Below, one piece after another: positions 14,965-33,996 of a stretch of 64,000 bases of DNA (positions are counted from its first letter, which is position 1; every line of letters starts with the position of its first letter). The DNA is from Chitinophagales bacterium. Its GTDB lineage: Bacteria; Bacteroidota; Bacteroidia; Chitinophagales; Chitinophagaceae. Below the pieces are notes generated by a model that worked only from the letters and a program-made list of their open reading frames with translations, was not told the origin of the DNA and ran no database searches. The DNA lies in NCBI GenBank assembly GCA_013298665.1, contig JAAFIK010000001.1:62001-126000 (forward strand). Direction: 5' to 3'. The position numbers were made by a program, and so were the translations under genes.

Positions 14965-15021
14965 TTTAATCAATTTTTAATCTTCCTTTAATGAAATATA
15001 GCCCGGCTGCTGCTAACTTCA
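14965..15021 (+). promoter_or_regulatory. Triple TTTAAT operator and promoter of the NhaD-type antiporter
   Basis: TTTAAT occurs at 14965, 14976 and 14987, exactly 11 bp apart. A possible -7 box TAACTTCA (15014-15021) follows 21 bp after the last copy, the same gap as at the two UspA promoters. Start codon at 15034. Confidence 0.65.
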
Positions 15022-15033
15022 CCCGAAAAGAAT

Positions 15034-16311
15034 ATGATGTACATACTGATAGCGTCACTTTTTATTATCGGGTACCTCGCTATTATATTTGAACATAAAA
15101 TTCATCTGAATAAAGCAGCCAGTGCACTTATTACGGGCGTATTGTGCTGGACGGTATATGCCCTTTTTCAAACAACTCAAAGCCATGCCAGCGAACTTGT
15201 ACTAAAACACCTGGGAGAAATAAGCAATATCTTATTTTTTTTGTTAGGGGCGATGACAATTGTTGAATTGATAGATTCGCATGACGGATTTGAATTTATT
15301 ACTGAGAGAATCTCAACAAATGAGATAAGAAGACTACTATGGGTCGTCGGTCTTATTACTTTTTTTCTTTCTGCAATTTTAGATAACCTCACTACAACTA
15401 TTGTAATGATTTCACTGTTGCGAAAAATTATCATTGACAAAAAACAAAGATTGATTTTTACAGGATTGGTAGTTATCGCAGCCAATGCAGGTGGGGCATG
15501 GTCGCCTTTGGGTGATGTATCAACAACCATGTTATGGATTGGGGGGCAGATTACTCCTGCCAAGACGATTACGGGCCTGTTTTTACCCTCTATGGTTTGT
15601 CTGTTAGTGCCGCTGCTGATTCTGCACTTTAAAAGCAGAGGGCAGGTTTTTCAAAGAGTAACTGCAATACCATCTTCAGGTAGTATGCCAAGGAAAGACA
15701 GGGACTTGATATTATTGTCAGGCATTGGTGTATTATTAATGGTGCCTGCTTTTAAAACGATTACTCATTTGCCTCCCTGCATGGGTATGTTGTTTGGCCT
15801 TGGTATTATGTGGATAGTTACAGCAATATTGCATCATGGCAAAGAGGAGGCGGACAAGGATATGCTTTCTGTTTCTTATGCCATGCGTAAAATTGATACA
15901 CCAAGTATATTATTTTTTCTTGGGATATTGTTAGCCGTGGCAGTGTTACAGGAAACTGGTCAGTTAAAATACACAGCAGACTGGCTTAGCAGTAATATAA
16001 AAAGTGAAACCGTAGTAATTTCAATAATAGGTTTGCTTTCATCATTGGTAGATAATGTTCCTTTGGTAGCGGGCTTGCAGGGAATGTACAGTCTGGACCA
16101 ATACCCAACCGACCATTTTTTCTGGCAGTTTCTGGCTTATTGTACCGGCACCGGCGGCAGTGCATTAATTATAGGCAGTGCTGCTGGTGTAGCTGCAATG
16201 GGCATGGAAAAAATAGGTTTTTTTTGGTATTTAAAAAATATAAGCCTTTTGGCAATTTCGGGTTATGTTGCCGGAGCTTTGGTTTATTTACTGCAGCAAA
16301 TGCTCTTTTAA
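15034..16311 (+). CDS. nhaD: NhaD-type Na+/H+ antiporter
   Basis: A 425-residue inner-membrane antiporter with about 11-12 spans, exchanging Na+ (or Li+) for protons. The NhaD signature is 'AANAGGAWSPLGDVSTTMLW' (about 152-171), with 'LDNLTTTIVMI' before it and a second 'LVDNVPLVAG' Asp-Asn pair near residue 343. Length fits the family. It is the first cargo gene, monocistronic, with the element's triple TTTAAT operator 42 bp upstream. Two adjacent ATGs (15034, 15037) are possible starts. Confidence 0.88.
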   Translation: MMYILIASLFIIGYLAIIFEHKIHLNKAASALITGVLCWTVYALFQTTQSHASELVLKHLGEISNILFFLLGAMTIVELIDSHDGFEFITERISTNEIRRLLWVVGLITFFLSAILDNLTTTIVMISLLRKIIIDKKQRLIFTGLVVIAANAGGAWSPLGDVSTTMLWIGGQITPAKTITGLFLPSMVCLLVPLLILHFKSRGQVFQRVTAIPSSGSMPRKDRDLILLSGIGVLLMVPAFKTITHLPPCMGMLFGLGIMWIVTAILHHGKEEADKDMLSVSYAMRKIDTPSILFFLGILLAVAVLQETGQLKYTADWLSSNIKSETVVISIIGLLSSLVDNVPLVAGLQGMYSLDQYPTDHFFWQFLAYCTGTGGSALIIGSAAGVAAMGMEKIGFFWYLKNISLLAISGYVAGALVYLLQQMLF

Positions 16312-16343
16312 GAGTTGTATTGAACACTCACTTATTCGCCAGG

Positions 16344-16400
16344 TTTAATTGAATTTTAATCGTCTTTTAATCACTTCTATAATCTCTGCCTGCATCTTTG
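16344..16400 (+). promoter_or_regulatory. Triple TTTAAT operator and promoter of the first UspA gene
   Basis: TTTAAT at 16344, 16355 and 16366 with exact 11-bp steps, then CATCTTTG (16393-16400, one mismatch to TAnnTTTG) after a 21-bp gap. The first two copies and the spacer between them are identical to those at 33940. A 12-codon open frame (MSNALRIISLTK, 16429-16467) lies in the leader before the UspA start at 16475. Confidence 0.68.
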
Positions 16401-16474
16401 CAGTTCGGGTACTAAACTGACAAATATTATGAGTAACGCACTGAGAATTATATCATTGACCAAATAATAAAAAA

Positions 16475-17392
16475 ATGAAATCTTTTCTTCAAAACATTCT
16501 TGTTGCCACAGATTTTTCAAAAACGGGAAATCATGCACTGGAAATAGCCGTTGAGCTCTGCCAAAAAAATGAAGCTGTATTGCATCTCCTGCATGTGGTT
16601 GAGAGCAGGTATATCATTGCGTCCCCAGGACCAGAAATTTCTTTGCCTGATATAGCCAGCGAAATTGATTCGGAAGCAAGAACAAAGCTTTATAATATTT
16701 ACGAAACCATCATGCGTTCATCAGGTATAGCTGTGCAAATTCACATGCCTACCGGCATTCCTTATGATGAGATATGCAAAGCAGCAGACGAAATGCCCAT
16801 TGACCTGATTATAATTGGTAAGCATGGAGCATCCGGGTTTAGGGATTTTTTTATGGGCACAACCGCCTATAGCGTAATAAAAAATACTACCAAGCCGGTG
16901 CTCACTATCCCGGAAAGCTATGCCAAATCGGGGTTTGAAAAAATCCTTTTCCCGGTGAGGCCAAAACAGGAAATAAAAGAGAAATTTGACTACATGAAGC
17001 CCTTTCTCCCCTCAACGAATTCAGGGGAAATTCATATTGCTGTACTTGCTAAAGATAGCATGGAGGAAGATTTATTGGGTAACAAAGACAAGCTGTATGA
17101 TATATTATGTTTTTTAAAGGAAAACCATATTCAGCATACAAAAGAATTCTACACCTGCGATAATTTTGCTGCTAAGGTACTTGAACTGGCATCGCTGCAA
17201 GCCGCCGATCTTATAGTAATTAATGCTTCACTTGATTATAAATGGACACAGTTTTTTGTTGGCCCATATACACAGCAGGTAGTCAATCATGCCAAAGTGC
17301 CTGTTTTGAGCTTCCGGCAGGCTATCAATGTGCCCAAAGAAATACAAAAAGAAGAAGATGCCGCATTTCTTAAAAAAGCCAATAGTTTATAA
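16475..17392 (+). CDS. Universal stress protein, tandem UspA domains
   Basis: A 305-residue cytoplasmic protein with two Usp domains. The first (about 1-148) keeps the ATP-binding pattern G-x2-G-x9-G in 'IIIGKHGASGFRDFFMGTTA'. The second (about 155-285) has lost it ('VINASLDYKWTQFFVGPYT'), as is common in tandem Usp proteins. It ends in a charged tail. It is transcribed alone from a promoter with the element's triple operator. A second tandem UspA is encoded at 34018. The family binds ATP and modulates stress survival; targets are unknown. Confidence 0.88.
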   Translation: MKSFLQNILVATDFSKTGNHALEIAVELCQKNEAVLHLLHVVESRYIIASPGPEISLPDIASEIDSEARTKLYNIYETIMRSSGIAVQIHMPTGIPYDEICKAADEMPIDLIIIGKHGASGFRDFFMGTTAYSVIKNTTKPVLTIPESYAKSGFEKILFPVRPKQEIKEKFDYMKPFLPSTNSGEIHIAVLAKDSMEEDLLGNKDKLYDILCFLKENHIQHTKEFYTCDNFAAKVLELASLQAADLIVINASLDYKWTQFFVGPYTQQVVNHAKVPVLSFRQAINVPKEIQKEEDAAFLKKANSL

Positions 17393-17607
17393 ATTTTTAG
17401 CCGCTTTTATTGTGGCCCAAACATTATTTTGGAAGGCTCAAAACGGTATATATATATACTTGTTATAAACGGTGCAGCATAATTGTGGCAGCTTCCATTT
17501 TTAGAGAAACAAGCGTTAAATTAGGCGAGAATGCCCAGTTGGAAGGAATAATAGCTATGTTGAGTTGAGAATACCCTATTAAAAGCTTATTTTTAAAAAA
17601 AAGGATA

Positions 17608-18933
17608 ATGAACTGGCTTCAAAAAGTTTTTTATATAAAAGATGGTACAGATTATACACAAACTGCTGTGTCTATTTCTGATGGCATTAAAGTTAAAGGT
17701 CTGAATGTATGGCTGATGATATGCTCGGCCTTGCTTGCCTCAATTGGCCTTGATACGAACTCAACAGCGGTGATTATTGGCGCCATGCTTATCTCACCGC
17801 TGATGTCGCCTATTCTGGGCGCAGGGTATTCAGTTGGCGTACAGGATAAGGAACTGTTTGTCCGGTCCATAAGGAACCTTTTTTATATTACTGTATTCAG
17901 TTTGCTTACTTCTGTTATCTACTTTTGGATAACACCGCTTGGTGAGCCTACTTCAGAAATACTGGCAAGAACACAACCTACGCTCCTGGATATTGGTGTT
18001 GCTTTCTTTGGAGGTGTTGCTGGTATTGTATCTGCCAGCAGAAAGGAAAAAATCAATGCCCTGCCGGGAGTAGCCATCGCCACTGCTTTAATGCCGCCAT
18101 TGTGCGCTGCAGGTTTTGGGTTAGCCACTGGTAGATGGGTGATTTTCGGAGGTGCCTTTTATCTGTTTTTTATCAATGCGGTTTTTATAGCTTTAGCCAC
18201 CTATTTAATTGTAAAATTGCTTCATTTTCCTGTAAAAGAGTATGTGGAAAATGGTAAACAGAAAAGGGTAGCCCGCCTGGCTTTACTTGTTGTATTGCTC
18301 ATAAGTATTCCAAGTTGTTGGTTTTTATATACCGTATATAAAAAAAACAGGATACGTAAAGTGATTCAAAGTCAAATTGTGAACGATTTTCATAATCACG
18401 GAAATGAAATTCTGAAATGGGAAGTTGAAGATCTTGATTCAGTAAAACTCATTAAAACTTTTTTTTCGGGTGCACCTGTTCCTGAAACGGGGAAACAATT
18501 TTACAATAATAAGTTGAAGGAAATGGGTTTTAAAGAGTACCGGGTACAGTTTTTCAGGATGAATCTTTCCAAAACTGAAATGGATAAGATGAGCACCGAA
18601 ATGACGGATAATATCATGAAAAATATTGAATTACAAAATACAAAGATGTTGGATTCCCTCCAGCAGGTTGTAAGCAGTATAGATCAAGGGGTGATTTACA
18701 GTGAAGTAAAAGCACTTTATCCCAATGTGGCAGGGCTAGGTATTTCTCAAACGGAAATTAAAACTACCGGGAAAATAGATACGGTATGGACGGCCTTTTT
18801 GCAATGGGATACCCTTTCCCAAAATATCAATAAGGGTGATGCTGCTCAAACATTACAGCGGTTCCTTAAAAAAAGATTAAAGACAGATACTGTCTGGCTG
18901 CAACAGACAGAACAATCAAAAAAAAATAAATGA
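17608..18933 (+). CDS. DUF389 membrane protein
   Basis: A 441-residue protein. The N-terminal half is a DUF389 domain with about six membrane spans and the conserved entry 'SAVIIGAMLISPLMSPILG'-like block (here 'STAVIIGAMLISPLMSPILG', residues 51-70) and 'GVAIATALMPPLCAAGFGLA'. The C-terminal 210 residues after the last span are soluble and probably periplasmic or cytoplasmic with no family match. DUF389 has no established function. It starts a four-gene operon with an MscS channel (ATGA overlap), an APC permease and a hibernation factor. I found no TTTAAT repeats in the 215 bp upstream. Confidence 0.85.
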   Translation: MNWLQKVFYIKDGTDYTQTAVSISDGIKVKGLNVWLMICSALLASIGLDTNSTAVIIGAMLISPLMSPILGAGYSVGVQDKELFVRSIRNLFYITVFSLLTSVIYFWITPLGEPTSEILARTQPTLLDIGVAFFGGVAGIVSASRKEKINALPGVAIATALMPPLCAAGFGLATGRWVIFGGAFYLFFINAVFIALATYLIVKLLHFPVKEYVENGKQKRVARLALLVVLLISIPSCWFLYTVYKKNRIRKVIQSQIVNDFHNHGNEILKWEVEDLDSVKLIKTFFSGAPVPETGKQFYNNKLKEMGFKEYRVQFFRMNLSKTEMDKMSTEMTDNIMKNIELQNTKMLDSLQQVVSSIDQGVIYSEVKALYPNVAGLGISQTEIKTTGKIDTVWTAFLQWDTLSQNINKGDAAQTLQRFLKKRLKTDTVWLQQTEQSKKNK

Positions 18934-19757
18934 ACGATTTTTGGAAGCAAATAATATTCCGCATAGGAAACTTTACACTTACACCTGCAAAACTCTTTGC
19001 GGTAATAATGATTATTGTTGTTACATGGATTTTAATTTTACTCCTGAAAAGAGTCATTCTCAGTAAAAAGAAACTTACTGTAAGTCAAACTGGGTCCCGT
19101 AACTCTTTATACCAGTTGATTAAATATTTTCTCTGGGTCATTGCTTTTTCATCCTGTATTTCAGTACTGGGGTTTAATATTACCATTTTGGTGGCAAGTT
19201 CTGCCGCCTTACTGGTTGGCCTTGGATTTGGCCTCCAAAATGTTTTCAGCGATCTGGTTTCAGGGTTATTTATGCTGTTTGAGCAGAAAGTAAAGATTGG
19301 TGATGTAATGGAAGTGGATAACATTGTGGGGAGAGTTCAACACATTAACCTTCGTACATCGGTATTGCTGACGAGAGATGGATTTAACATCATTGTCCCC
19401 AATCATAAATTTATTGCCGATAATGTTATTAACTGGACACACCAGGGTTTCCAGCGCCGCTTTCATCTTGAAATTTCGGTTAGTTACACCAGCGATACTG
19501 AACAGGTTACAGCCATTTTGAACAAGTGTGCTGCAGAGCAGGAGGAACTGCTGAAGGACAATGAACATAAAGCCTTTGTGCGATTGCAGGATTTTGGAGA
19601 TAATGCATTGATATTTTACCTGATGTTCTGGACGGCAGACATATTCAGGGTGGAACAGGTAAAAAGTAACTTGCGGTATAAAATAGTAAAAGCATTTCAG
19701 GAAAATAATATTACCATACCTTTTCCTCAAAGAGATATTCGTATTATTCAATCATAA
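18930..19757 (+). CDS. MscS-family mechanosensitive channel
   Basis: A 275-residue small-conductance channel that would release solutes on osmotic downshock. About three membrane spans are followed by the pore-lining signature 'LVGLGFGLQNVFSDLVSGLF' (about residues 93-112) and the cytoplasmic beta/alpha-beta vestibule domains ('KIGDVMEVDNIVGRV', 'NIIVPNHKFIADNVINW'). Size matches E. coli MscS. It overlaps the DUF389 gene by four bases (ATGA), indicating translational coupling, and is followed after 5 bp by the APC permease. Confidence 0.9.
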   Translation: MNDFWKQIIFRIGNFTLTPAKLFAVIMIIVVTWILILLLKRVILSKKKLTVSQTGSRNSLYQLIKYFLWVIAFSSCISVLGFNITILVASSAALLVGLGFGLQNVFSDLVSGLFMLFEQKVKIGDVMEVDNIVGRVQHINLRTSVLLTRDGFNIIVPNHKFIADNVINWTHQGFQRRFHLEISVSYTSDTEQVTAILNKCAAEQEELLKDNEHKAFVRLQDFGDNALIFYLMFWTADIFRVEQVKSNLRYKIVKAFQENNITIPFPQRDIRIIQS

Positions 19758-19762
19758 TTTGC

Positions 19763-21502
19763 ATGTCATCACACAAAAAACTAAACACATGGTTTGCCAC
19801 CGCAATTTGCGGTAACGACATTACATCTTCCTGTTTGTATGTGTCAGCCCTTACCATTGGTATGGCTGGGCAATACGCATGGATAGCATTACTAATGGTA
19901 GCAGCCGTTCTTTTTTTATTTCGTAAAATTTATGGGGAAGTAGTGGGAGCCCTGCCTTTGAATGGCGGCGCATATAATGTACTACTGAATACTACAAGCA
20001 AAAGCAATGCATCTGTTGCCGCCTGTCTCACAATTTTGTCATATATGGCTACGGCAGTTATCTCAGCCAGTGAGGCCATGCATTACCTGCACGAAAGCTT
20101 CAATTCCCTTCCAGTGATAAAGGCTACCTTGATTTTACTTTTCATTTTTTTGTGCCTGACCATTATTGGCATTTCAGAGAGTGCAGTTGTAGCACTGGTG
20201 ATTTTTATTTTTCATCTGGCAACAATGGCCCTGCTGATTATAAGTTGCTGTTACTTTTTATTAATAAACGGCACATCCATCTTTCATGCAAACTTTTCAC
20301 TTCCCATAAAGGGGGGAAGTTTGATTACGGCTTTGTTTTTTGGCTTTAGTGCTGCCATGCTTGGTATATCCGGCTTTGAAAGTTCTGCCAACTTTGTGGA
20401 AGAACAAAAGCGTGGTGTATTCCCGAAGACGTTGCGGAATATGTGGCTGTCTGTTTCTATATTAAATCCCTTAATTGCCCTGCTGGCAATTGCAGTAATG
20501 CCTGTAGCACAGGTAGATGCTCACCAGCAATCGTTACTTAGCTATATGGGCACCTTAACAGGGGGAAGTTGGCTCTCCACACTCATTTCAATTAACGCCG
20601 TAACAGTATTAAGCGGTGCAGTATTAACTTCCTTTGTTGGTGTTAACGGTTTAATCAAAAGAATGACATTAGACAGGGTATTGCCGCAGTTTTTATTAAA
20701 AGTAAACATGCGTGGCAGCAGTTACCGGATATTGATAGCATTTTTCCTTTTATGTGTGTCAGTATTATTTGTGACAAATGGCGAACTGGCACCATTAGCT
20801 GGCGTTTACACTATTTCTTTTTTATTGGTTATGGCTTTTTTTGCTTTGGGAAATCTGATACTCAAGATAAGAAGAGCCCGGCTGCCCAGGCCAGAGTATG
20901 CAACACCTTTTGTAGTGGTAGTAGCATTACTGGCAGTAGGGATTGCTTTATATGGGAATATCAAAATGAAGCCCGAATTCCTGGTTGTTTTTCTTCAGTA
21001 CTTTGTTCCTGCTATGCTTTTGATATATGCAATGCTGAACAGAAACCATATTATGCAGTTTGTTTTGGTGATATTGAGAAACCTGGCCGATAGTGTGCGC
21101 AAACTTTCAGTAATCAGCCGGAAAAAAATCAATAGCTTTATAAATAAATTACACCAGCAGGAATTTGTTTTTTTCTCAAAAGGCGATGATATTGCCACAC
21201 TTAACAAAGTGATGATATATGTGCAGGAAAATGAGATTACACAAAAAATAAGAATTGTAACCATTTTAAATGAACATCAACCAGCGCCAGAGCAATTTTT
21301 GAAGGATTTTGAAGTACTTGACAGGGCTTACCCAAACATCAAAATGGAATATATCATGATAGTGGATGCTTTTGGGCCTGAACTGATAAACCGCTTAAGC
21401 AAAGAATGGAATATTCCAAAAAATTTTATGTTTATCAGTTCGCCGGGAGAGAAATTCAGTTACCGGGTGGAAGAATTGGGAGGGGTAAGGCTGATACTGT
21501 AG
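19763..21502 (+). CDS. APC-superfamily amino-acid permease with C-terminal soluble domain
   Basis: A 579-residue transporter with about 12 spans (residues 10-440) of the APC fold, including the unwound helix-1 pattern 'AICGNDITSSCLYVSALTIG' and 'GEVVGALPLNGGAYNVL'. A soluble tail of about 130 residues follows ('NKVMIYVQENEITQKIRIVT', 'LDRAYPNIKMEYIMIVDAFG'), which resembles the Usp-like tails of some APC permeases. Substrate is not clear. Third gene of the DUF389-mscS-permease-hpf operon. Confidence 0.85.
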   Translation: MSSHKKLNTWFATAICGNDITSSCLYVSALTIGMAGQYAWIALLMVAAVLFLFRKIYGEVVGALPLNGGAYNVLLNTTSKSNASVAACLTILSYMATAVISASEAMHYLHESFNSLPVIKATLILLFIFLCLTIIGISESAVVALVIFIFHLATMALLIISCCYFLLINGTSIFHANFSLPIKGGSLITALFFGFSAAMLGISGFESSANFVEEQKRGVFPKTLRNMWLSVSILNPLIALLAIAVMPVAQVDAHQQSLLSYMGTLTGGSWLSTLISINAVTVLSGAVLTSFVGVNGLIKRMTLDRVLPQFLLKVNMRGSSYRILIAFFLLCVSVLFVTNGELAPLAGVYTISFLLVMAFFALGNLILKIRRARLPRPEYATPFVVVVALLAVGIALYGNIKMKPEFLVVFLQYFVPAMLLIYAMLNRNHIMQFVLVILRNLADSVRKLSVISRKKINSFINKLHQQEFVFFSKGDDIATLNKVMIYVQENEITQKIRIVTILNEHQPAPEQFLKDFEVLDRAYPNIKMEYIMIVDAFGPELINRLSKEWNIPKNFMFISSPGEKFSYRVEELGGVRLIL

Positions 21503-21553
21503 TACGGGTTGTTGAGAAAAAACTTATAAATAGTAATCAAAAAAAAAAATAAC

Positions 21554-23721: not shown

Positions 23722-24954
23722 TTAGACCTTAATGATCTTAGTCCACACCTTCTTTGTTTCCTCAAAGGCAGTGAAATGCCTTTGCACATTTTTGTCGTAA
23801 TACTTCAACTCGGCGAGCAATTGCTCAAATTTATTGGTTTTGAAATATCCGCAAAGTTTGGGTAAGGTTTGTAAAAGATTCCGCTTTATTTGTTCGATAA
23901 GTGCAGGGTAATTTTCTTTTTGTGTAATGTAGAGCAATAAGGGTTTATAACGTATCCAGCCCAATGCTGCCCTGATAAACCGGTTTTTTTCAAACTCCGT
24001 ATTGCCATGTACAGGTGAGAAGTGTACAGGAAGGACACCGTTTAAAATGTTGCCGCAGGTGGAGAACCCATCATGAAATGCATAACAGGGAACTTTTAAT
24101 ACTTTTAATTCAGAAAGGCATGTGCTCATAAAAGTATCTTCCCCCCTGGCTCCTGGCGGGTTATAAAACGGTGGTATCTTGCTGTTTTTTTTCAAATTAA
24201 AACAAATATTAGCTCCGGATATAAATTTCATCCCATTTATTTCTGCTACTTCTTTTGTTGCCGGGTTTGTAATTATATCCTCGCTGGCATAGGTAATGCC
24301 ATTGTTTTCAATAATACTTTCCTTTATTTTTTCCCAGGAAATTATATCGTTGCTGATTGTTTCAATAAATAATCTGAAATCAACTTCGCTAAGTGTATCA
24401 TTAAAAACTATACGGGGAATGGGCGAAATATACCCGCAATGATGGCCATGAGTTATATCGGCTTTCGAATTAAATTTCAAATGGGTACCTACGATGCTTT
24501 GCCCCATCCAGAATATCTGCTCTTTGGGGGATTTAAATACAGCAACCGGATACTCATCGTCATCAAGAAAAATAAGCTTATCCATTTTGCTTTTGATGGC
24601 AAAATAAAGGATAGAGTTCCGTTTCTTTGCGTAGCCTTCGCCGAAGACCAATCCTGCCTCCTTTTCATTAACGAGCCCTCTTGCAATCAATATTTCTGCT
24701 TCTTCTTTTGTTTTTTGCTCGCCAATATAAGTAATGCTGGCGAGCATTTCCTTAAGCGAAGGTTCAATATTCCTGTAATCCTCGATCTGTGTATTTTGAT
24801 ACTTCAAATCATAAGCTATAAACAAATGCAGCCTGATACTTTGTTCATTTATTAATCCATATTCAAGCCAGTTGTTAATATATGCTTTTAGCACATTCTG
24901 AAAGTTCTTTCTCCCGGTTGCAAATCCAATTCCTACATTATTTGTCATATACAT
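23722..24954 (-). CDS. Putative glycosyltransferase (GT-A-like), function unknown
   Basis: A 410-residue soluble protein. The strand-helix start 'GIGFATGRKNFQNVLKAY', followed later by 'KMDKLIFLDDDEYPVAVF' (about residues 124-141) with a triple Asp, resembles the nucleotide-sugar and metal-binding DxD region of GT-A glycosyltransferases. 'ITHGHHCGYISPIP' and 'GARGEDTFMSTCL' (acceptor-side Glu-Asp) also fit. I cannot assign a family or substrate. It starts 4 nt after the glycerate kinase stop codon, so the two are one operon. With GpgS also in the element, it may glycosylate a glycerate-based solute or its lipid or polymer derivative, which is conjecture. ATG at 24954 or 24948. Confidence 0.5.
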   Translation of the reverse strand: MYMTNNVGIGFATGRKNFQNVLKAYINNWLEYGLINEQSIRLHLFIAYDLKYQNTQIEDYRNIEPSLKEMLASITYIGEQKTKEEAEILIARGLVNEKEAGLVFGEGYAKKRNSILYFAIKSKMDKLIFLDDDEYPVAVFKSPKEQIFWMGQSIVGTHLKFNSKADITHGHHCGYISPIPRIVFNDTLSEVDFRLFIETISNDIISWEKIKESIIENNGITYASEDIITNPATKEVAEINGMKFISGANICFNLKKNSKIPPFYNPPGARGEDTFMSTCLSELKVLKVPCYAFHDGFSTCGNILNGVLPVHFSPVHGNTEFEKNRFIRAALGWIRYKPLLLYITQKENYPALIEQIKRNLLQTLPKLCGYFKTNKFEQLLAELKYYDKNVQRHFTAFEETKKVWTKIIKV

Positions 24955-26382: not shown

Positions 26383-26706
26383 TTATATTTCAATAACTTC
26401 AAGCTGAGGTACAATTTGTTGAATATCATTTATCCATTTATCCCGGTTCGCCGTTGAGTAAAACATGGCGCTTTTGCATATGATTCTGCCATCCGAGCCA
26501 ATAACCAGGAAAAAGTAATCACCTTCTTCAGTCTCGTCTTTTGCTATGCCCGTGGGTGTGCGTACATTTTTCTTTACCGAATTGATAGCATCAAATATTT
26601 TCTCTTTCTCCTTATATGCTTCACTAAGCAGCAGTAAATCGCCATTTTCATCAGCAAGCCGAAAAAAATACTCATTGCTCTGGTCTGTATATATTTCAAA
26701 TATCAT
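26383..26706 (-). CDS. DUF1508 (YegP-type) protein
   Basis: A 107-residue protein with the two-stranded DUF1508 pattern: 'FEIYTDQSNEYFFRLADENG' matching the usual F-x-x-x-x-x-x-x-Y-x-F-x-L-x-x-x-N-G, then 'AINSVKKN' and 'YFFLVIGSDGRIICKSAMFY' in place of the common 'F-x-L-x-A-x-N-x-x-x-I'. The function of the family is unknown. It has a long leader (predicted start about 26862) with a 9-bp hairpin, and its own triple TTTAAT operator. A second, divergent-in-sequence DUF1508-like gene is encoded 205 bp upstream. Confidence 0.75.
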   Translation of the reverse strand: MIFEIYTDQSNEYFFRLADENGDLLLLSEAYKEKEKIFDAINSVKKNVRTPTGIAKDETEEGDYFFLVIGSDGRIICKSAMFYSTANRDKWINDIQQIVPQLEVIEI

Positions 26707-26865: not shown

Positions 26866-26911
26866 CAAAAATCATTCACCGGCATTAAAATTCCATTAAA
26901 ATAAAATTAAT
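26866..26911 (-). promoter_or_regulatory. Triple operator and promoter of the first DUF1508 gene
   Basis: Read on the minus strand: ATTAAT at 26911-26906, TTTAAT at 26900-26895 and 26889-26884, with 11-bp steps. GATTTTTG (26873-26866, one mismatch to TAnnTTTG) follows after 10 bp, one operator unit closer than at the UspA promoters. Confidence 0.6.
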
Positions 26912-27271
26912 TCAGGCAGCAGTGCTGTATCTGGATATGCATTTGCTATTAGTTATATTAGCATTACCTGAATGTAATTGTAAAATGGCAAGCATTCTCA
27001 TCATCAGCTCCGGCTCAGGAAAAATGCGGCTAAGGGCGATTGTTGTACCTTCAGAGGACAATACAGAAAACCAGTAACCAGTTTGATTGTATTTAAAGGC
27101 AATCTTATCAGATAGTATCATACTTTTTTGGATTTCCTTAATTTCTGCAATACAATCGTTTCTCGTAGCATGACTCCTGCCTTGTATGAGCATCGGTTTA
27201 AATCTTGTGTTAAGCACATACCTGAACTTGAATAAGCCATTCTTCGTTATATGTATTACAAACTGTGTCAT
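26912..27271 (-). CDS. DUF1508-like protein
   Basis: A 119-residue protein beginning 'MTQFVIHITKNGLFKFRYVL', followed by 'CIAEIKEIQKSMI' and 'GYWFSVLSSEGTTIALSRIF', which follows the strand-turn-helix rhythm of DUF1508 with weak consensus. Its C-terminal tail (about 25 residues) has no match. It has its own promoter region with four TTTAAT-type repeats 40 bp before the ATG and is divergent from the antiporter/two-component operon at 27398. Function unknown. Confidence 0.6.
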   Translation of the reverse strand: MTQFVIHITKNGLFKFRYVLNTRFKPMLIQGRSHATRNDCIAEIKEIQKSMILSDKIAFKYNQTGYWFSVLSSEGTTIALSRIFPEPELMMRMLAILQLHSGNANITNSKCISRYSTAA

Positions 27272-27311: not shown

Positions 27312-27350
27312 ATTAAGTATAATTTAAAGAAATATTAAAATCACATTAAA
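27312..27350 (-). promoter_or_regulatory. Four-copy TTTAAT operator between a DUF1508-like gene and the antiporter/TCS operon
   Basis: On the minus strand: TTTAAT at 27350-27345 and 27339-27334, TTTAAA at 27328-27323, CTTAAT at 27317-27312, all in 11-bp steps. It points to the minus-strand gene (ATG 27271) but lies only 36 bp from the -7 box of the divergent antiporter-RR-HK operon, so it could control both, including autoregulation of the two-component system. Confidence 0.62.
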
Positions 27351-27393: not shown

Positions 27394-27397
27394 ATTC

Positions 27398-28621
27398 ATG
27401 ACAGAACTGAATTCTTATGCGTTTATTGTGGTAATTTGTTTGCTTATCATAACTTCTTATCTGTACAATATAGTATCCCGAAAAACCGGGATACCCTCAG
27501 TATTGCTTTTGTTATTATCGGGTATTGGTGTAAGGGAATTACTTGTGTACAAAAATGCAGCCTTTGCGATTCCGCAACAGGTTGTGGAAATGTTTGGAAT
27601 TGTTGGACTAATTATGATTATGCTTGAAGCTGGGCTGGATTTAAATGTAAGCAGAAAAAAACTGAAACTTATACGAAATGCTTTTTTATCGGCACTCTTT
27701 ATCCTGTTACTTTCTGTTTTAGCCTGCTCAGGATTATTATTCTGGTATCTTAAAGAAGATTACCTGCGATGTGTTATTTATTCCATACCACTTTCGGTAG
27801 TAAGCAGTGCTATTGTGATACCAAGTATCTCACATCTTAATCAGATGAAACAGGAATTCCTTATATATGAAACATCATTTTCTGATATAATTGGAATTTT
27901 GGTTTTTAACTATATGATTGCAGGCAACCTGATAAGTGGGACTAATATTGCTTGGTTTTTTGGTTCTATTATATTTACAGTTATTATCAGCTTGCTTTTG
28001 TCCTTTTTTATGTTACTAATGCTAACTCGTATAACAACAAAAGTGCGTTTTTTCCTGGTACTGGCAGTACTTATTTTTTTATATGCAGGTGGTAAATTGT
28101 TACACCTCCCTGCCTTGTTTATTATACTCCTGTTCGGTTTGGTTATCAGCAACTGGCAATTGCCCCTTTTTCGCAAGCTTAATAAGTGGATTTCATATAA
28201 CCAGGTAAGCCAGGTAAGCCATCTGATGCATTCCCTGACTGCCGAATGTAGTTTTCTTATCCGCACATTTTTTTTCTTTATTTTCGGGCTTACCATAGAT
28301 GTAAGACTTTTGCTGGATATTGAAGTTGCCCTTACTGGTGCTTCAATCGTACTGCTGCTGCTTGGAATAAGGTATGTGTACCTGAGATTTTTTTTACGGT
28401 CGCATATATTCCCTGAACTATTTTATATGCCAAGGGGCCTTATAACTGTTCTTCTATTTTACAGCATCCCTGAAATCTATAAGTTGACAAAATTCAATGA
28501 AGGCGTTTTATTTTTTGTAATATTGGTAACCAGTATTATTATGCTGTATGGTTCGGTTTTCTGGAAAAAAGCAAAGGTGCAAACCATTAACGATGAAATG
28601 CCATTAATGGATGAAAATTAA
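27398..28621 (+). CDS. Cation:proton antiporter, CPA2/KefB-like membrane domain
   Basis: A 407-residue antiporter with about 12 spans and no C-terminal TrkA-N domain. The early 'VLLLLLSGIGVRELL' and 'MFGIVGLIMIMLEAGLDLN' blocks match the CPA2 inverted-repeat fold, and 'YETSFSDIIGILVFNYMI' (about residues 153-170) holds an Asp at the ion-binding helix. Exchange of K+ or Na+ for H+ is likely; which ion is open. It is the first gene of an operon with an OmpR-type regulator (6-bp gap) and kinase (4-bp gap), so sensing and transport are linked. The mRNA is predicted leaderless. Confidence 0.82.
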   Translation: MTELNSYAFIVVICLLIITSYLYNIVSRKTGIPSVLLLLLSGIGVRELLVYKNAAFAIPQQVVEMFGIVGLIMIMLEAGLDLNVSRKKLKLIRNAFLSALFILLLSVLACSGLLFWYLKEDYLRCVIYSIPLSVVSSAIVIPSISHLNQMKQEFLIYETSFSDIIGILVFNYMIAGNLISGTNIAWFFGSIIFTVIISLLLSFFMLLMLTRITTKVRFFLVLAVLIFLYAGGKLLHLPALFIILLFGLVISNWQLPLFRKLNKWISYNQVSQVSHLMHSLTAECSFLIRTFFFFIFGLTIDVRLLLDIEVALTGASIVLLLLGIRYVYLRFFLRSHIFPELFYMPRGLITVLLFYSIPEIYKLTKFNEGVLFFVILVTSIIMLYGSVFWKKAKVQTINDEMPLMDEN

Positions 28622-28627
28622 GTAAGT

Positions 28628-29317
28628 ATGGAAGAAATAAAAGTATTGCTTATTGAAGATGAAAAGAAAATAGCTGATAGTATTTCAAAAGGGTTGAGGG
28701 AGCTGGATTACCATGTAGAAACGGCTTATGATGGTAAAATAGGTATGCGCCTTTTTGAGAATGGCAGTTTTAATATTGTTATTTCAGATATTAACCTGCC
28801 GGGCATGAATGGCTACGACTTGTGCAAGAACATACGTAGCCGAAACCAGCATGTACCTATCATTATGCTTACAGCCTTGAACTCTACCAACGATAAAATT
28901 GAGGGGTTTGATGCAGGAGCAGATGATTATATGGTAAAGCCATTTGAATTTAAAGAATTGGTTGTACGTATAAGGGCACTGTTGAAACGGACTATGAACC
29001 AGCAATTGCCCACCGGGAATGTGTTAAAAGTAGCCGATTTAGAGTTGAACGTGGACAGTATGGAAGTTACCCGTGCAGGCGAACCTATCAGTCTTACTGC
29101 CAAGGAATTCCAACTGCTTGAATATTTTATGCGCAACCGCAACCGGGTACTTTCAAGGGCAGATATTGCTGAAAAGGTTTGGGACTTTGATTTTGATACA
29201 AAAACGAATGTGATTGATGTATATGTCAATTTTCTCAGGAAAAAGTTAGAAAAAGATTTTGACGGAAGACTCATACATACACAGGTAGGTATGGGTTATA
29301 TTATGAAGGAAAAGTAG
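28628..29317 (+). CDS. OmpR/PhoB-family response regulator, probable master regulator of the element
   Basis: A 229-residue regulator. Receiver domain 1-120 with acidic 'IEDEKK', phospho-acceptor D54 in 'ISDINLPG' and Lys 104 in 'YMVKPFEF'; winged-helix domain about 132-229 with 'LTAKEFQLLEYFMRNRNRVL', 'VIDVYVNFLRKKL' and the wing 'HTQVGMGYIM'. Regulators of this class bind head-to-tail to direct repeats with an 11-bp step, which is exactly the spacing of the TTTAAT repeats at six promoters in this element. The link is inferred. Partner kinase follows after 4 bp. Confidence 0.93.
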   Translation: MEEIKVLLIEDEKKIADSISKGLRELDYHVETAYDGKIGMRLFENGSFNIVISDINLPGMNGYDLCKNIRSRNQHVPIIMLTALNSTNDKIEGFDAGADDYMVKPFEFKELVVRIRALLKRTMNQQLPTGNVLKVADLELNVDSMEVTRAGEPISLTAKEFQLLEYFMRNRNRVLSRADIAEKVWDFDFDTKTNVIDVYVNFLRKKLEKDFDGRLIHTQVGMGYIMKEK

Positions 29318-29321
29318 AGAT

Positions 29322-30704
29322 ATGAGTATAAAATTGAAGATTACATTTTTATTTACCCTGCTGGTAATGCTCATTTGCTTTGTTGTCAGCCTTGCTGTTT
29401 ATTATTTCAGCGCTGCGGAAAGGGAGGCAACCTTTAAAAAAAGGCTGAAAAACAGGGCCCTCAGCACAGCAAAAGTTTATGCTGATATTCCCGATGGCAA
29501 TTTTGCAGCACTGAAGAATATGGATACATCTTCAGTAGCATCATTGTACAATAAAAGTATATCTATAATTGGTTACCTGAACGAGAACCTGTATATGTAT
29601 TCTGACAGGTCAGGGGAATTATTGTACCTTACTCAAAAAACAATAGAAAGGACAAAAATTGAGGATGAATACTATTTTATATACAAAAAAAAACAGGCTT
29701 TAGCATTGCATTACCTGGATAACAATCATAATTTTATTGTAGCTGTAGCAGCGGCAGATATTGACGGCAGCGAGTATCTTCAAGAATTAAAGAAAATATT
29801 GTTACTGGTTTTTTTTCTCTCTGTTTTGTTTTCATTTTTTTCAGGTATTTTGTTTGCAAAGCACCTTTTGCGACCGCTTGGAAAGATAAATGCCGAAATA
29901 AGCCTTATTACTTCTACCAGTTTATCCCAACGTATAAGCGCAGGGAAGAGAAACGATGAACTTTTCCAGGTGGTGCAAAATTTCAATCAACTGTTAGACA
30001 GGCTGCAAGAATCTTTTACTGTACAAAGGCGCTTTATATCCAATGCCTCTCATGAACTTTCCACACCGCTTACATCCATTTCCAGCCAGCTTGAAGTGGC
30101 CATGCAAAAAAGCAGGACAGGGCAGGAGTACCGGGAAGTGCTCCAAAGTGTGTATGATGATGTTAAAGACCTGCAGCAATTAACGAGGAGTCTGCTTGAT
30201 ATTGCAAAAACCGGTTCGCAGGGCAGCATTGATTTAAGTGAAGTACGTATTGATGAAGTGCTGCTGAAAGTTGCAGCCGATGTACAAAAATTGCAAAGTA
30301 GTTATCGTGTTGCAATTAATTTTGAAATTTTGCCAGACGATGCACAAATGCTGACTGTTTATGGCAACAGCAACCTTTTGTATATGGCGCTAAAGAATAT
30401 AATAGAAAACGGTTGTAAATACTCTGACAATCATCATTCGCTGGTTCAGACCTCTTTTAATAAATCGCACATATATATATCAGTATCAAGCAAAGGCGAT
30501 GTTATTGCCGAAGCAGATATTCAGAATATTTTCCACCCTTTTTTTCGTACAGAGTCTGCTTCTTCAAGACCTGGTTTTGGCCTGGGACTAACACTTGCAA
30601 AGCGAATTCTTGGGTTGCATAAGGCAACGGTTACTGTAAGCAGTAATCCCGTAAACGGGACTGTTTTTTTAGTAGAATTGCCGAATATTACAAGGGCTAC
30701 TTAG
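29322..30704 (+). CDS. Sensor histidine kinase, HAMP-HisKA type
   Basis: A 460-residue inner-membrane kinase. First span about 6-30, an extracytoplasmic domain of about 125 residues with no recognised sensor fold, second span about 156-178, HAMP, HisKA with phospho-acceptor His in 'SNASHELSTPLTS' and an ATPase domain with N-box 'NIIENGCKYSDN' and G-box 'GFGLGLTLAKRI'. The DxG F-box region is weak ('SKGDVIAEADI'). Partner is the OmpR-type regulator just upstream. The neighbouring antiporter and the cargo suggest that pH, Na+ or osmotic stress is the signal. Confidence 0.92.
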   Translation: MSIKLKITFLFTLLVMLICFVVSLAVYYFSAAEREATFKKRLKNRALSTAKVYADIPDGNFAALKNMDTSSVASLYNKSISIIGYLNENLYMYSDRSGELLYLTQKTIERTKIEDEYYFIYKKKQALALHYLDNNHNFIVAVAAADIDGSEYLQELKKILLLVFFLSVLFSFFSGILFAKHLLRPLGKINAEISLITSTSLSQRISAGKRNDELFQVVQNFNQLLDRLQESFTVQRRFISNASHELSTPLTSISSQLEVAMQKSRTGQEYREVLQSVYDDVKDLQQLTRSLLDIAKTGSQGSIDLSEVRIDEVLLKVAADVQKLQSSYRVAINFEILPDDAQMLTVYGNSNLLYMALKNIIENGCKYSDNHHSLVQTSFNKSHIYISVSSKGDVIAEADIQNIFHPFFRTESASSRPGFGLGLTLAKRILGLHKATVTVSSNPVNGTVFLVELPNITRAT

Positions 30705-30707
30705 TAT

Positions 30708-30753
30708 TTTAACACTGTTTTAATTCTCCTTTAATCTTGCTGCTTCATCTTAG
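30708..30753 (+). promoter_or_regulatory. Triple operator and promoter of the small-protein/GpgS operon
   Basis: TTTAAC at 30708, TTTAAT at 30719 and 30730, in exact 11-bp steps. The first copy lies just after the kinase stop codon. CATCTTAG (30746-30753) after a 10-bp gap is a weak -7 candidate. ATG of the small protein at 30768. Confidence 0.62.
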
Positions 30754-30767
30754 TGGAAATATTTTCT

Positions 30768-30998
30768 ATGCTCAAAACTTTCTTCCCTTCGGTGATGATT
30801 GTATTACTGATTACGGCAAGCAGTGCCCTCTTTATTACCGTAAGGCATAATAAGCAGTTGAAGCGTGAAAAGGAAGTGCTGCTTCTCAAGAACGATTCAC
30901 TTCACATAGAACAAATACAAATCAGGAAAGAATTAACAACGGTAAAAAAATACCTTGACAGCACGCTTTCAGTCAAGTCAAAATATTCCTTTAAATAA
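30768..30998 (+). CDS. Small single-span membrane protein with coiled coil
   Basis: A 76-residue protein from the ATG at 30768 (an in-frame GTG at 30753 would add five). One membrane span ('SVMIVLLITASSALFITV', about 8-25) is followed by a charged coiled coil ('QLKREKEVLLLKNDSLHIEQ'). No family recognised. It ends 8 bp before gpgS and shares its promoter, which carries the triple operator. Placement suggests a membrane anchor or regulator for the GpgS fusion or the neighbouring kinase; this is a guess. Confidence 0.6.
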   Translation: MLKTFFPSVMIVLLITASSALFITVRHNKQLKREKEVLLLKNDSLHIEQIQIRKELTTVKKYLDSTLSVKSKYSFK

Positions 30999-31006
30999 TA
31001 CATTTT

Positions 31007-32431
31007 ATGATTACAGTTATTATACCCGCTTTAAATGAACAGGACACAATTGCTAAAGTTGTTGAGCATTGTGCTGCCGAGAAGGATGTAACAGAGATTA
31101 TAGTGGTAGATGACCAAAGCACTGACAGTACGAGGATGGTTGCTGAAGGTGCCGGGGCTAAAGTGATTATAAGCGCTAAGCGGGGCAAAGGCATTTCTAT
31201 GAAAGAAGGTATTGCTGCTGCCACTAACCAGGTATTGGTATTTCTTGATGCTGATATACATCCATACCCGACAGAAACGGTAAGGAAATTAACAGCACCT
31301 ATACTCAATAATGAATGTGATTTTGTAAAGGGTGCCTTTGCAAGAAATGCAGGACGGGTTACAGAACTGGTAGCTAAACCCCTGCTTAAAATATTCTATC
31401 CTGAGTTGTCTGATTTTCAGCAACCGTTGAGTGGGATGATTGCTGGAAAAAAAGCATTTTTCAGTAAGATAGATTTTTTTCAGGATTATGGTGTTGATGT
31501 TGGCATTTTGATAGACATGTTCCTTATGCAGGCGAGGGTAAAAGAAGTTAATATAGGGTACATCGAAAATAAAAGTAAACCCTGGCAGATGCTGGGCAAA
31601 ATGAGCAGCGAGGTTTCAAGGGCTATTATACGGCGTGCTACAATGCGAAACGGTAATTCTGTTGGTTTGGATGAACTGGGTACTGTAAATATTATTACAA
31701 GTGAGATGGAACATGTAATGAAAGAAGAGATGGACACTTTGAATAAAATGGTAGTATTTGATATGGACAATACACTGCTTCTGGGGAGATTTATTGATAC
31801 CTGCGCTCAGAAATTCAATTTTGCTGATAAGCTTAAAGACCTTCGTAAAACCGAAAGAAATCCTGCTGTACTTACTAAACGTATTGCTATGCTTATTCGT
31901 GGCCTGTCGCAAGGGGATTTACTCGAAACGGCGGCTAGCATACCAATCGTAGCAGATGCAGAAATGGTGGTAGGGATATTGCAACAAAATGGCGTAAAAG
32001 TAGGTATTATCAGTGATAGCTATCAAATAGTGGTGGAGTATATAAAAAATCAGTTGGGTGCAGATTTCGCTTTTGCCAACAGGCTAGAATTTTTTGAAGG
32101 AAAAGCCACGGGTGAAGTAATTATTCCTGCTATGTTTTATAATAATATTGAAAGCAAATGCGGCCACGCTATATGCAAAACAAATGTGTTGCAGCAAATG
32201 GCAAGGAAGTACAATGTAGCGATGACAAACTGCGTAGCCATTGGAGACAGTGAGAACGATCTTTGCATGATTGAACAGGCAGGACTAGGCATCGCCTTTT
32301 GTACAGATAATGAAAAATTAAAGAAAAGTGCCGACAAGGTTATTGATAAACCCTCATTTACGGGACTATTAAATATGGTAAATATAAACGGGCTTCGCAT
32401 ACAAAAGATTACTGAAAATATACTGACCTGA
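31007..32431 (+). CDS. gpgS: Glucosyl-3-phosphoglycerate synthase fused to a HAD-IB phosphatase
   Basis: A 474-residue bifunctional protein. Residues 1-235 are a GT-A glycosyltransferase with 'VIIPALNEQDTI', 'IIVVDDQSTDST', the DxD motif at D81-D83 and the GT81/GpgS-like block 'QPLSGMIAGKKAFF' with 'YGVDVGILIDMFL'. GpgS joins glucose from a nucleotide sugar to 3-phosphoglycerate. Residues 248-474 are a HAD phosphatase: nucleophile motif 'FDMDNTLLLG' (D252, D254, T256), 'IISDSY' and 'AIGDSENDLCMI'. It would remove the phosphate, giving glucosylglycerate, a compatible solute. The two steps are usually separate proteins (GpgS and GpgP). Mannosyl-3-phosphoglycerate synthase is the main alternative. 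Confidence 0.8.
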   Translation: MITVIIPALNEQDTIAKVVEHCAAEKDVTEIIVVDDQSTDSTRMVAEGAGAKVIISAKRGKGISMKEGIAAATNQVLVFLDADIHPYPTETVRKLTAPILNNECDFVKGAFARNAGRVTELVAKPLLKIFYPELSDFQQPLSGMIAGKKAFFSKIDFFQDYGVDVGILIDMFLMQARVKEVNIGYIENKSKPWQMLGKMSSEVSRAIIRRATMRNGNSVGLDELGTVNIITSEMEHVMKEEMDTLNKMVVFDMDNTLLLGRFIDTCAQKFNFADKLKDLRKTERNPAVLTKRIAMLIRGLSQGDLLETAASIPIVADAEMVVGILQQNGVKVGIISDSYQIVVEYIKNQLGADFAFANRLEFFEGKATGEVIIPAMFYNNIESKCGHAICKTNVLQQMARKYNVAMTNCVAIGDSENDLCMIEQAGLGIAFCTDNEKLKKSADKVIDKPSFTGLLNMVNINGLRIQKITENILT

Positions 32432-32445
32432 TTTATACTCTAAGT

Positions 32446-33852
32446 TTAAAGTGCACGTTCTTTTAAATTTAAAGGAGAAAGCTGGATTTCCTCTATCGTC
32501 CTGTTCAGCCTGCTTCTTTCTGCTGCAAAAGCCATCAGGTGACTTTCAATAGATACTTCAATGCCAGAACTGAGGAGACTTTTATCCTGCTGCGCTACCG
32601 CCTGAACCCAGTCTTTTACCAACTCTTGGTCGCCGCCACCATGCGCATCTGTTTTCATTTTCCAAAGTGTTTGTTTCCTCGTTCTGAAATTCGTCAGTAC
32701 AAATGTTTCCATATCGCCTGAAATATCTCCTTCAGAGCCCATAATCCTGGTTCTCCTTCCTTCGTAAGATACATGGGCTTCCATTGAAAAAGCTGCTGTT
32801 ATACCATTTTCAAATAACATATTTACAGTAAGATGATCTGGCTGGTCGTTATCCATTTTGTAAACGCATCTCCCATAATCTGTTACCTTTAATTGTTCTA
32901 TTATATAATCATCCCAGGCAGCCATATCCTGCGGCATATCAAACACATATAAACGTTTTTTATCCCGAAGGTAAATCTGTATGGCAGAGTAAGGGCAGGT
33001 TTCCTCCACTTTACACCCATCGGTACATCTTTCTGTGCTTCCATCTGGCGCATTACCGCTGGTAAACCATTTCAAATTCCCAAAGCAATGCACATCCTTT
33101 ACCGGGCTGTTGGCCAACCACCTAATTATATCCGTATCATGACAGGATTTTGCTACAACAATCGGTGTGGCATTCCCGCTTCTTTTCCATTTGCCCCTTA
33201 CATACGAGTGGCTCATGTGTATCTGCTCAATAGGCTCCATGTGCTGTATGCTGATGATTTTTCCAATCAGGCCGGCTTCAATCACTTGTCTCAGTTGCCG
33301 GAAGTAAGGAGCATACCGGAGTACATGGCAAACACCCACAATACGGTTGCTTTCAACTGCTTTTTCTAAAATCAGCCTGCACTCTTCTTCTGTAACAGCT
33401 ATCGGTTTTTCAAGCAGTATGTCATACCCCGCTTCAAGGGCAGCAATGCATGGCCGGGCATGGATGTCATCAGGTGTTGCTATTATTACTGCATCTGCAA
33501 ACTTGGCCTGCTTAAAAATGTCTTCCCAATTATCAAAACAGCAGTCTTCAGTAATATCATGCTGTAGATTGAATCTGTTGCGTCTGGCAATATTGGGTTC
33601 CGCTACTGCAACTATTTTTAGCTCTCCGGGATTGTCAATTGCATACCGGGCATAAATATTACCCCGGTGTCCGGCTCCAATCAAGATGGCGGTAACCGGT
33701 TTTATTGGTTTTATGTACCGGGGGTTATCATATACGTCATTTTTAAGTCCGAATAAGGATGCTATCTCTTTCCAGCGCAAGGTCGCATTTCCCGTTACAA
33801 CTGTGAGTGAACGCAGTAATTTCCTGGAACTTATAAATTGACGGAGAGACAT
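32446..33852 (-). CDS. Gfo/Idh/MocA-family oxidoreductase
   Basis: A 468-residue NAD(P)-dependent sugar or polyol dehydrogenase. After an N-terminal extension of about 50 residues comes the Rossmann motif 'ILIGAGHRGNIYARYAI' and the family motif 'EKPIAVTEEEC' with the catalytic Lys. 'KSCHDTDIIRWL' holds the conserved Asp/His of the active site. A Cys-containing insert ('ERCTDGCKVEETCPYSAI') is seen in the subfamily of large members. Substrate unknown. It stands alone on the minus strand inside the cargo, convergent with gpgS (14-bp gap). Confidence 0.85.
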   Translation of the reverse strand: MSLRQFISSRKLLRSLTVVTGNATLRWKEIASLFGLKNDVYDNPRYIKPIKPVTAILIGAGHRGNIYARYAIDNPGELKIVAVAEPNIARRNRFNLQHDITEDCCFDNWEDIFKQAKFADAVIIATPDDIHARPCIAALEAGYDILLEKPIAVTEEECRLILEKAVESNRIVGVCHVLRYAPYFRQLRQVIEAGLIGKIISIQHMEPIEQIHMSHSYVRGKWKRSGNATPIVVAKSCHDTDIIRWLANSPVKDVHCFGNLKWFTSGNAPDGSTERCTDGCKVEETCPYSAIQIYLRDKKRLYVFDMPQDMAAWDDYIIEQLKVTDYGRCVYKMDNDQPDHLTVNMLFENGITAAFSMEAHVSYEGRRTRIMGSEGDISGDMETFVLTNFRTRKQTLWKMKTDAHGGGDQELVKDWVQAVAQQDKSLLSSGIEVSIESHLMAFAAERSRLNRTIEEIQLSPLNLKERAL

Positions 33853-33939
33853 TTGATTAAATTGATAGAGTTAAGAAGGAGAGTTATATGAGGAACAAAA
33901 ATACGGCTAAGAGGTTGTTTTTATTTGTACAACAGCTTT

Positions 33940-33996
33940 TTTAATTGAATTTTAATCTAACCTTAATTACTCTCTTACAACAGGCAGGTAATATTG
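33940..33996 (+). promoter_or_regulatory. Triple operator and promoter of the second UspA gene
   Basis: TTTAAT at 33940 and 33951 and CTTAAT at 33962, in exact 11-bp steps, then TAATATTG (33989-33996, one mismatch to TAnnTTTG) after 21 bp. Start codon at 34018. The first 18 bases match those at 16344. Confidence 0.68.

Follow-up and report, generated by a model that had tools for sequence, protein, structure and literature searches.

A tandem TTTAAT operator and its putative reader, an OmpR/PhoB-type two-component system of a Chitinophagales bacterium

A stretch of 64,000 nucleotides from a Chitinophagales bacterium (family Chitinophagaceae; contig JAAFIK010000001.1, positions 62,001 to 126,000), referred to as the window, contains six arrays of the hexamer TTTAAT with unit starts in exact 11-bp steps. 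With a probability of about 0.85, these arrays are the operator of the adjoining two-component system, i.e., of a response regulator (28628-29317) and a sensor histidine kinase (29322-30704). Similar arrays stand beside orthologous regulators in other genomes, and the second base of their units, T or C, varies with residue 202 of the regulator, which is Phe or Tyr. Judged from sequence, the two-component regulon is real and of the OmpR/PhoB kind, and, if only near-perfect sites are considered, it is self-contained in this genome. Regulons of this kind are already known. To our knowledge, few operators of OmpR-type regulators have been described in Bacteroidota, and a literature search found no report of the TTTAAT operator, the Phe/Tyr code or the regulon.

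Arrays in the window and beside orthologous regulators

The six arrays and the genes of the two-component system are as follows.

14965..14992, + strand: array of three TTTAAT units upstream of the NhaD-like antiporter gene; -7-like box TAACTTCA at 15014-15021
16344..16371, + strand: array of three units upstream of the universal stress protein (Usp) gene at 16475; -7 box CATCTTTG at 16393-16400
26884..26911, - strand: array of three units upstream of the DUF1508 gene at 26383; -7 box GATTTTTG at 26866-26873
27312..27350, - strand: array of four units upstream of the gene at 26912-27271
30708..30735, + strand: array of three units immediately 3' of the kinase gene; -7-like box CATCTTAG at 30746-30753
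33940..33967, + strand: array of three units upstream of the Usp gene at 34018; -7 box TAATATTG at 33989-33996
28628..29317, + strand: OmpR/PhoB-type response regulator (Response_reg 1.8e-30, Trans_reg_C 9.4e-27)
29322..30704, + strand: sensor histidine kinase (HAMP, HisKA, HATPase_c)

A preliminary description of this DNA had reported the six arrays and their 11-bp steps, and both were found again. When the pattern was defined as TTTAAT-N5-TTTAAT-N5-TTTAAT, by which a four-unit array scores as two matches, the arrays were far above chance in the window: seven matches with up to three mismatches were counted, compared to an average of 0.44, and never more than 3, in 100 dinucleotide shuffles. 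According to a scan for open reading frames all six are intergenic, and each is oriented toward the next gene, as had been claimed. In five cases this gene begins 40-177 bp beyond the array. Behind the array at 30708, a small gene begins at 30753 or 30768, and the gene for a GpgS-like synthase lies 271 bp from the array. For the small gene, a start at ATG 30768 is more likely than one at GTG 30753 because the predicted -7 box spans 30746-30753. The four-unit array is also located 48-86 bp upstream of a divergent row of exchanger, regulator and kinase genes.

The genome to which the window belongs (4,828,997 bases in 108 contigs, 98.7% complete) was scanned with the same pattern. Six sites had at most one mismatch, and all of them fell within C1:76965-95967, which corresponds to window positions 14965-33967 (about 19 kb); the chance that six uniformly scattered sites fall in such a span is about 6e-12. 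No further site with at most one mismatch was present in the 4.83 Mb, and the next best sites carry two mismatches. The earlier observation that no such array was seen outside the element stands for near-perfect sites. With up to three mismatches the pattern occurred at 18 places and the reversed pattern at 16, so that only near-perfect sites carry signal.

To follow the arrays into other genomes, 100 loci were fetched from the same bacterial family, each comprising a homologue of the 28628 regulator (47-80% identity) in up to 20 kb of surrounding sequence; at least 135 of 195 genomes of the family contain a match to the regulator. Several matches on short contigs or contig ends and many weaker ones were omitted (examples are G122:C61, G074:C281, G122:C412, G142:C36, G092:C44, G117:C79, G038:C279, G048:C206 and G144:C35). 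The family was sampled instead of the phylum, where a search at E 1e-70 had matched 6 of 148 genomes. A kinase homologue was present within 3.5 kb in 98 of the 100 loci. With at most one mismatch, 45 arrays (overlapping units counted) were found in 24 loci, as compared to none with spacers of 3, 4, 6 or 7 and two with the backward unit. Of these arrays, 28 are located behind the kinase gene, at a distance of 2.0-2.5 kb downstream of the start of the regulator gene, and five just upstream of the regulator gene. With up to two mismatches the count rose to 99 versus 5, 2, 0 and 3 for spacers 3, 4, 6 and 7, respectively, and 16 for the backward unit; the array behind the kinase gene had the orientation of the regulator at 27 loci and the opposite one at none. 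A blind search, which covered the 4096 possible hexamers and periods 8-13 in the post-kinase and regulator-upstream regions, was headed by TTTAAT (plus complement) at period 11, which was present in 18 loci. It was followed by TCTAAT, likewise at 11, in 16 loci; any other period reached at most two loci.

In three loci (L134 14559, L137 4633 and L138 4832), which form a separate group of regulators with Phe at residue 202, arrays of four to six units precede unrelated genes of about 1500-1750 codons; this is apparently another regulon with the same hexamer. Regulator homologues, all less than 60% identical, were also encountered on 15 plasmid records from Hymenobacter, Spirosoma, Fibrella, Emticicia, Persicobacter and Parabacteroides.

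Residue 202 of the recognition helix and the second operator base

As TCTAAT emerged as the second hexamer of the blind search, the residues of the recognition helix were tested against the operator. This helix reads DVYVNFLRKK in the window regulator (residues 197-206), with Phe at residue 202; the homologues carry either Phe or Tyr at this place. In a first sample of 100 regulators (99 loci plus the window; L173 was excluded by a length filter), position 2 of the units was T in 80 and C in 2 instances next to Phe regulators, and T in 35 and C in 147 instances next to Tyr regulators. The later sample consisted of 40 regulators from genomes not used before, which were picked before their promoters were seen. 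Here the counts were 59 T to 1 C for Phe and 15 T to 42 C for Tyr, and the prediction was right in 30 of 31 typed regulators, the other nine being untypable (no array or a tie). Over all samples, 103 of 140 regulators were typed, 97 of which fit the rule (60 Tyr-C, 37 Phe-T).

Among 229 alignment columns of the 103 typed regulators, residue 202 had the highest mutual information with the operator base (0.70 versus 0.57 for the next column). With two letters it predicts the base in 94% of the cases; of the next two columns, one reaches 85% with 17 letters and the other 88% with 14. In 11 of the 13 genomes where regulators of both kinds were typed, each regulator was accompanied by the operator class of its own kind. 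The G+C content of Phe loci was slightly higher than that of Tyr loci (0.444 versus 0.427), and base composition therefore does not explain the split between T and C.

Further, 25 of 80 loci from named or titled records were examined, one of which was unreadable at residue 202 (L322) and three of which (L313-L315) seem to be repeats of genomes already used. An array was present in two Phe loci, one from Runella limosa and the other from a metagenome bin, and read TTTAAT in both. For the 13 Tyr loci with an array, the best array was judged by eye, which gave a majority of C in ten, a tie in three and a majority of T in none. As the array-bearing loci include Pedobacter, Arcicella, Dyadobacter and Phocaeicola, genera that we take to belong to other families, the Phe/Tyr rule would extend past the bacterial family.

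Residue 202, which presumably corresponds to Arg201 of PhoB, aligns with Tyr220 of Mycobacterium tuberculosis PhoP (numbering counted from the alignment and from the published residue numbers). According to the report on the PhoP-DNA complex, Tyr220 hydrogen-bonds C5, the second base of the repeat T4-C5-ACAGC (PMC4832192), which parallels the contact proposed here between Tyr202 and TCTAAT. According to work cited in PMC3973317, Arg201 of PhoB forms a bond with a guanine.

These data make it fairly probable that Bacteroidota share, in a large family of OmpR-type regulators, a one-residue, one-base code in which T at repeat position 2 is read by Phe202 and C by Tyr202. Such a code would let paralogous two-component systems of the same cell keep separate operators. 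It would have switched several times, with the stress regulon kept and the operators of the regulon rewritten together with the regulator.

A number of observations weigh against this code and against the assignment of the arrays to the regulator. (i) Six of the 103 typed regulators are Tyr-T (none is Phe-C). (ii) In two genomes with regulators of both kinds, G008 and G029, the operator classes were not separate. (iii) When the first sample was taken by itself, mutual information was higher for receiver-domain residue 4 than for residue 202, a lead that was gone in the enlarged set of 103. (iv) No array was found in the two searched regions at 9 of 30 Phe regulators of the first sample and 2 of 18 of the second; among the named or titled loci, arrays were lacking in the searched regions of four of six Phe loci (and of five of 18 Tyr loci). 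(v) Residue 202 changed about four to five times on the tree, i.e., there were few independent switches. The first tree (100 rows) contained three independent pairs on all branches and one on well-supported branches, the enlarged tree (140 rows) four and two, respectively, and the sign test was not significant with either.

The last point is what favours a reading in which the association of Phe/Tyr with T/C reflects shared descent, the regulator binding the arrays while residue 202 does not set the base. This is considered unlikely, given that residue 202 is the best of all columns in spite of having just two letters, that it aligns with the PhoP residue bonding the second repeat base, and that none of the independent pairs runs in the opposite direction. 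As the sign test was not significant, weight was placed on the pairs within genomes, the later sample and the published structure.

Promoter geometry and proposed mode of action

The -7 consensus of Bacteroidota is TAnnTTTG. In agreement with the preliminary description, which had placed -7-like boxes at two distances, a box follows 21 bp past the last unit of the arrays at 14965 (4/6 consensus letters), 16344 (5/6) and 33940 (5/6), and 10 bp past that of the arrays at 26884 on the minus strand (5/6) and 30708 (4/6). The four-unit array at 27312-27350 (minus strand) has no good box, with 3/6, which counts against the proposed reading of the arrays. The spacing was then determined in a set of 36 arrays with at most one mismatch (six from the window and 30 from regulator loci), where at least 5/6 letters of TAnnTTTG counted as a box. 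A box was located exactly 10 bp past the last unit in 18 of the 36 arrays and 21 bp past it in five; every other offset between 0 and 49 was represented by at most two arrays.

With these distances the regulator would cover the -33 region or be shifted upstream of it by one helical turn, facing the same side of the DNA. PhoB stands over the -35 region and recruits RNA polymerase, and fixed distances between array and box upstream of -7 are typical of activators of the OmpR/PhoB kind. The predicted placement favours activation rather than repression. If the regulator were a repressor, the array would overlap the -33 region and block polymerase until the signal arrives; the last unit 10 bp before the -7 box in half of the arrays is where a repressor could sit too. 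Such a mode is nevertheless quite improbable, as the arrays stand at fixed distances of 10 and 21 bp and were encountered neither on the -7 box nor past it, a pattern typical of activators.

The following course of events is proposed for activation by the 28628 regulator. A signal, perhaps salt, pH, osmotic or envelope stress, would lead the kinase to phosphorylate the regulator, the winged-helix domains of which would occupy the TTTAAT units one by one, in a head-to-tail arrangement and on a single face of the DNA. Within the recognition helix, Phe202 would face operator position 2; relatives with Tyr202 use TCTAAT. From its place over or just above the -33 region the regulator would most likely recruit RNA polymerase in the manner of PhoB. 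The candidate targets are the antiporter, the universal stress proteins, the DUF1508-type genes, the compatible-solute-type synthase and the row of Usp, TPR, CLC and exchanger genes. Here the near-perfect sites are all gathered in one block of low G+C content, and in relatives the predicted regulon is partly spread over the chromosome. That the regulator binds the repeats when phosphorylated is suggested by the covariation alone.

The system has the constituents expected of the OmpR/PhoB family: a receiver joined to a Trans_reg_C winged helix, direct repeats about one helical turn apart and an adjoining kinase gene. The genome encodes five Trans_reg_C domains, and the arrays might be read by a different regulator of the host, whether OmpR-type or other, with the 28628 regulator merely lying among them. 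This is highly improbable: the other four Trans_reg_C proteins are 31-34% identical to the 28628 regulator, their helices differ, and their genes sit on contigs without near-perfect arrays, while the arrays accompany 28628 orthologues in other genomes and vary with residue 202. Arrays beside orthologues, covariation and the lack of another close regulator of this type in the genome are the reasons for which the 28628 regulator is regarded as the putative reader; as an OmpR/PhoB-type operator read by this protein, a role that the preliminary description had already suggested, the arrays are strongly supported by sequence comparison. The idea that the arrays represent UP-like or other AT-rich promoter elements, or else DNA-bending phased T-tracts, with no dedicated reader has next to no probability: the hexamers are AT-rich and in phase with the helix, but enrichment is limited to one hexamer pair at one period and does not extend to the backward unit or other spacings, a single genome holds T and C forms each by its own regulator class, and Phe loci are no more AT-rich than Tyr loci.

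Several known systems were compared. M. tuberculosis PhoP shares with the 28628 regulator the domain plan and repeats in 11-bp steps, described as 7-bp motifs with a 4-bp spacer; it differs in its two-unit sites and its motif, the window regulator having Phe and three or four units. The pho boxes of Escherichia coli PhoB are likewise tandem direct repeats at 11 bp, according to PMC4832192, with another motif, and the window block contains no phosphate genes. KdpE resembles the arrays in its AT-rich 6-bp direct-repeat half-sites (PMC3264566); it has other targets and is only distant kin of the window regulator (E 6.8e-27 to solved KdpE). The best NCBIfam subfamilies for regulator and kinase were the CzcR/SilR/CopR heavy-metal systems, which differ in that the array-linked genes of the window are stress and ion-transport genes.

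Two identities were rejected for the regulator on the basis of curated cut-offs. It scored 182.1 of 296.2 bits with NCBIfam PhoB models and 178.5 of 270 bits with PhoB of Bacteroidota (NF053854). With the heavy-metal subfamily TIGR01387 it scored 230.4 of 279.2 bits; the kinase, with its own best heavy-metal subfamily, reached 180.4 of 292.55 bits.

The analysis yields sequence-based predictions of the operator, its reader, the residue that reads the base and the promoter spacing for 103 typed regulators. If the predictions are true, the regulons of many two-component systems could be predicted as well, and nature would have provided an experiment on the joint change of specificity of a regulator and its many sites. 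The proposed stress regulon with Usp, compatible-solute synthase and antiporters is directly testable.

Candidate regulon members and the low-GC block

The array-linked genes of the block, apart from regulator and kinase, are listed below.

15034..16311, + strand: NhaD-like Na+/H+ antiporter, CitMHS family (Pfam 1.2e-33)
16475..17392, + strand: universal stress protein (Pfam Usp 1e-34)
26383..26706, - strand: DUF1508 protein (Pfam 1.8e-15)
26912..27271, - strand: small protein, at most weakly DUF1508-like, without Pfam match
27398..28621, + strand: Na+/H+ exchanger leading the row with regulator and kinase (Pfam 4.6e-19)
30753..30998, + strand: small protein; related gene 3' of the array in loci L078 and L081
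31007..32431, + strand: glucosyl-3-phosphoglycerate-synthase-like (GpgS) glycosyltransferase fused to a HAD phosphatase (Pfam)
34018..39616, + strand: Usp, TPR protein, CLC channel and Na+/H+ exchanger genes in a row, following the last array (Pfam)

Of the targets named in the preliminary description, the antiporter, the two Usp genes and the GpgS operon stand. The two DUF1508-type genes do so in part: Pfam recognizes 26383-26706, to which the product of 26912-27271 showed marginal similarity (E = 8e-4 in a two-sequence BLASTP). The antiporter was assigned to NhaD_1 (NF038006, 149.4 bits, cut-off 80), with TIGR00775 staying under its own cut-off. The GpgS-like protein scored 186.8 bits with PRK13915, which is under the cut-off of 262.

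Homologues of these genes were sought in the loci of relatives. Where the regulator was at least 63% identical (44 loci), counterparts were present of the TPR protein (17 loci), Usp 34018 (16), Usp 16475 (6), GpgS (6), CLC (5) and DUF389 (3), and of NhaD, the 38384 exchanger, a permease and HPF in one locus each. The 34 loci with regulators less than 57% identical contained Usp 34018 and the TPR protein once each, MscS once and a GFO-type oxidoreductase twice; the latter occurred in none of the 44 loci. In five genomes (G029, G162, G002, G102 and G175) an array precedes a GpgS-Usp operon on a contig different from that of the regulators found, and in G085 array and operon are more than 1 megabase away from the regulators.

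The 195 family genomes were also scanned as a whole. In the 28 genomes, window genome apart, whose fetched regulators showed Phe, 83 arrays were counted versus 6 backward controls, with at least three arrays in 16 of the 28. The other 166 genomes, which may include untyped Phe regulators, had 70 arrays versus 37 controls, and four of them had at least three. In Phe genomes, 11 of the 15 promoters of close GpgS homologues (53-59% identical) carried a TTTAAT array, and 8 of these 11 were located away from the regulator. No array was seen at seven promoters of distant homologues (37-43% identical). In genomes where Tyr regulators alone were typed, none of ten GpgS promoters had a TTTAAT array and one had a TCTAAT array. 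Forty array stretches were picked by hand among the matches listed, mostly from genomes with a Phe regulator; 25 of 69 arrays outside the window precede a gene matched to the block. As predicted from these sites, the regulon, which includes Usp, the GpgS-like synthase, the TPR protein and antiporters, extends beyond the block and is partly unlinked in relatives. Two counts run against this assignment: 4 of the 15 close GpgS promoters had no array, and 44 of the 69 arrays precede no confidently block-matched gene (two had weak 24% matches), from which it follows that some of the sites are either spurious or unrelated to this regulator.

The block extends from about 14 to 40 kb, with a G+C content of 0.36-0.41 per 2 kb versus 0.39-0.52 around it. 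The preliminary description had taken the regulon to be dedicated to a mobile element. In this form the idea was not supported: regulator, kinase, operator and targets recur across the family and the six relatives named above have the GpgS-Usp operon and its array unlinked to the regulators. Acquisition of the block from elsewhere is plausible; its mobility is unproven. A search around the presumed borders of the block gave no attachment repeats of use. Among 12 genomes of the same genus no empty site was detected via the flanking genes, both of which were matched in three genomes only (G126, G193 and G337), on different contigs. Right-flank DNA searched in 11 genomes of the genus, its own included, matched itself and otherwise short dispersed stretches. 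A large serine recombinase reading frame (9354-10997, minus strand) overlaps the 3' end of a tRNA-Val gene (9320-9397); it lies outside the low-GC stretch in DNA of ordinary G+C content and possibly belongs to an unrelated integrated element.

A few further features were noted. The small protein of about 80-95 residues encoded directly 3' of the post-kinase array was matched in L078 and L081, and in L082-L085 the protein at this place is alike only in size and position; it may be an accessory of the sensor. A 410-residue protein of the block (23722-24954, minus strand) had no match in Pfam, NCBIfam or PHROGs. At the right edge of the block, a repeat at 39791-39846 has copies on two other contigs of the genome (C84 and C47), and a second one at 40056-40128 has many copies in the same genome and in relatives of the genus.

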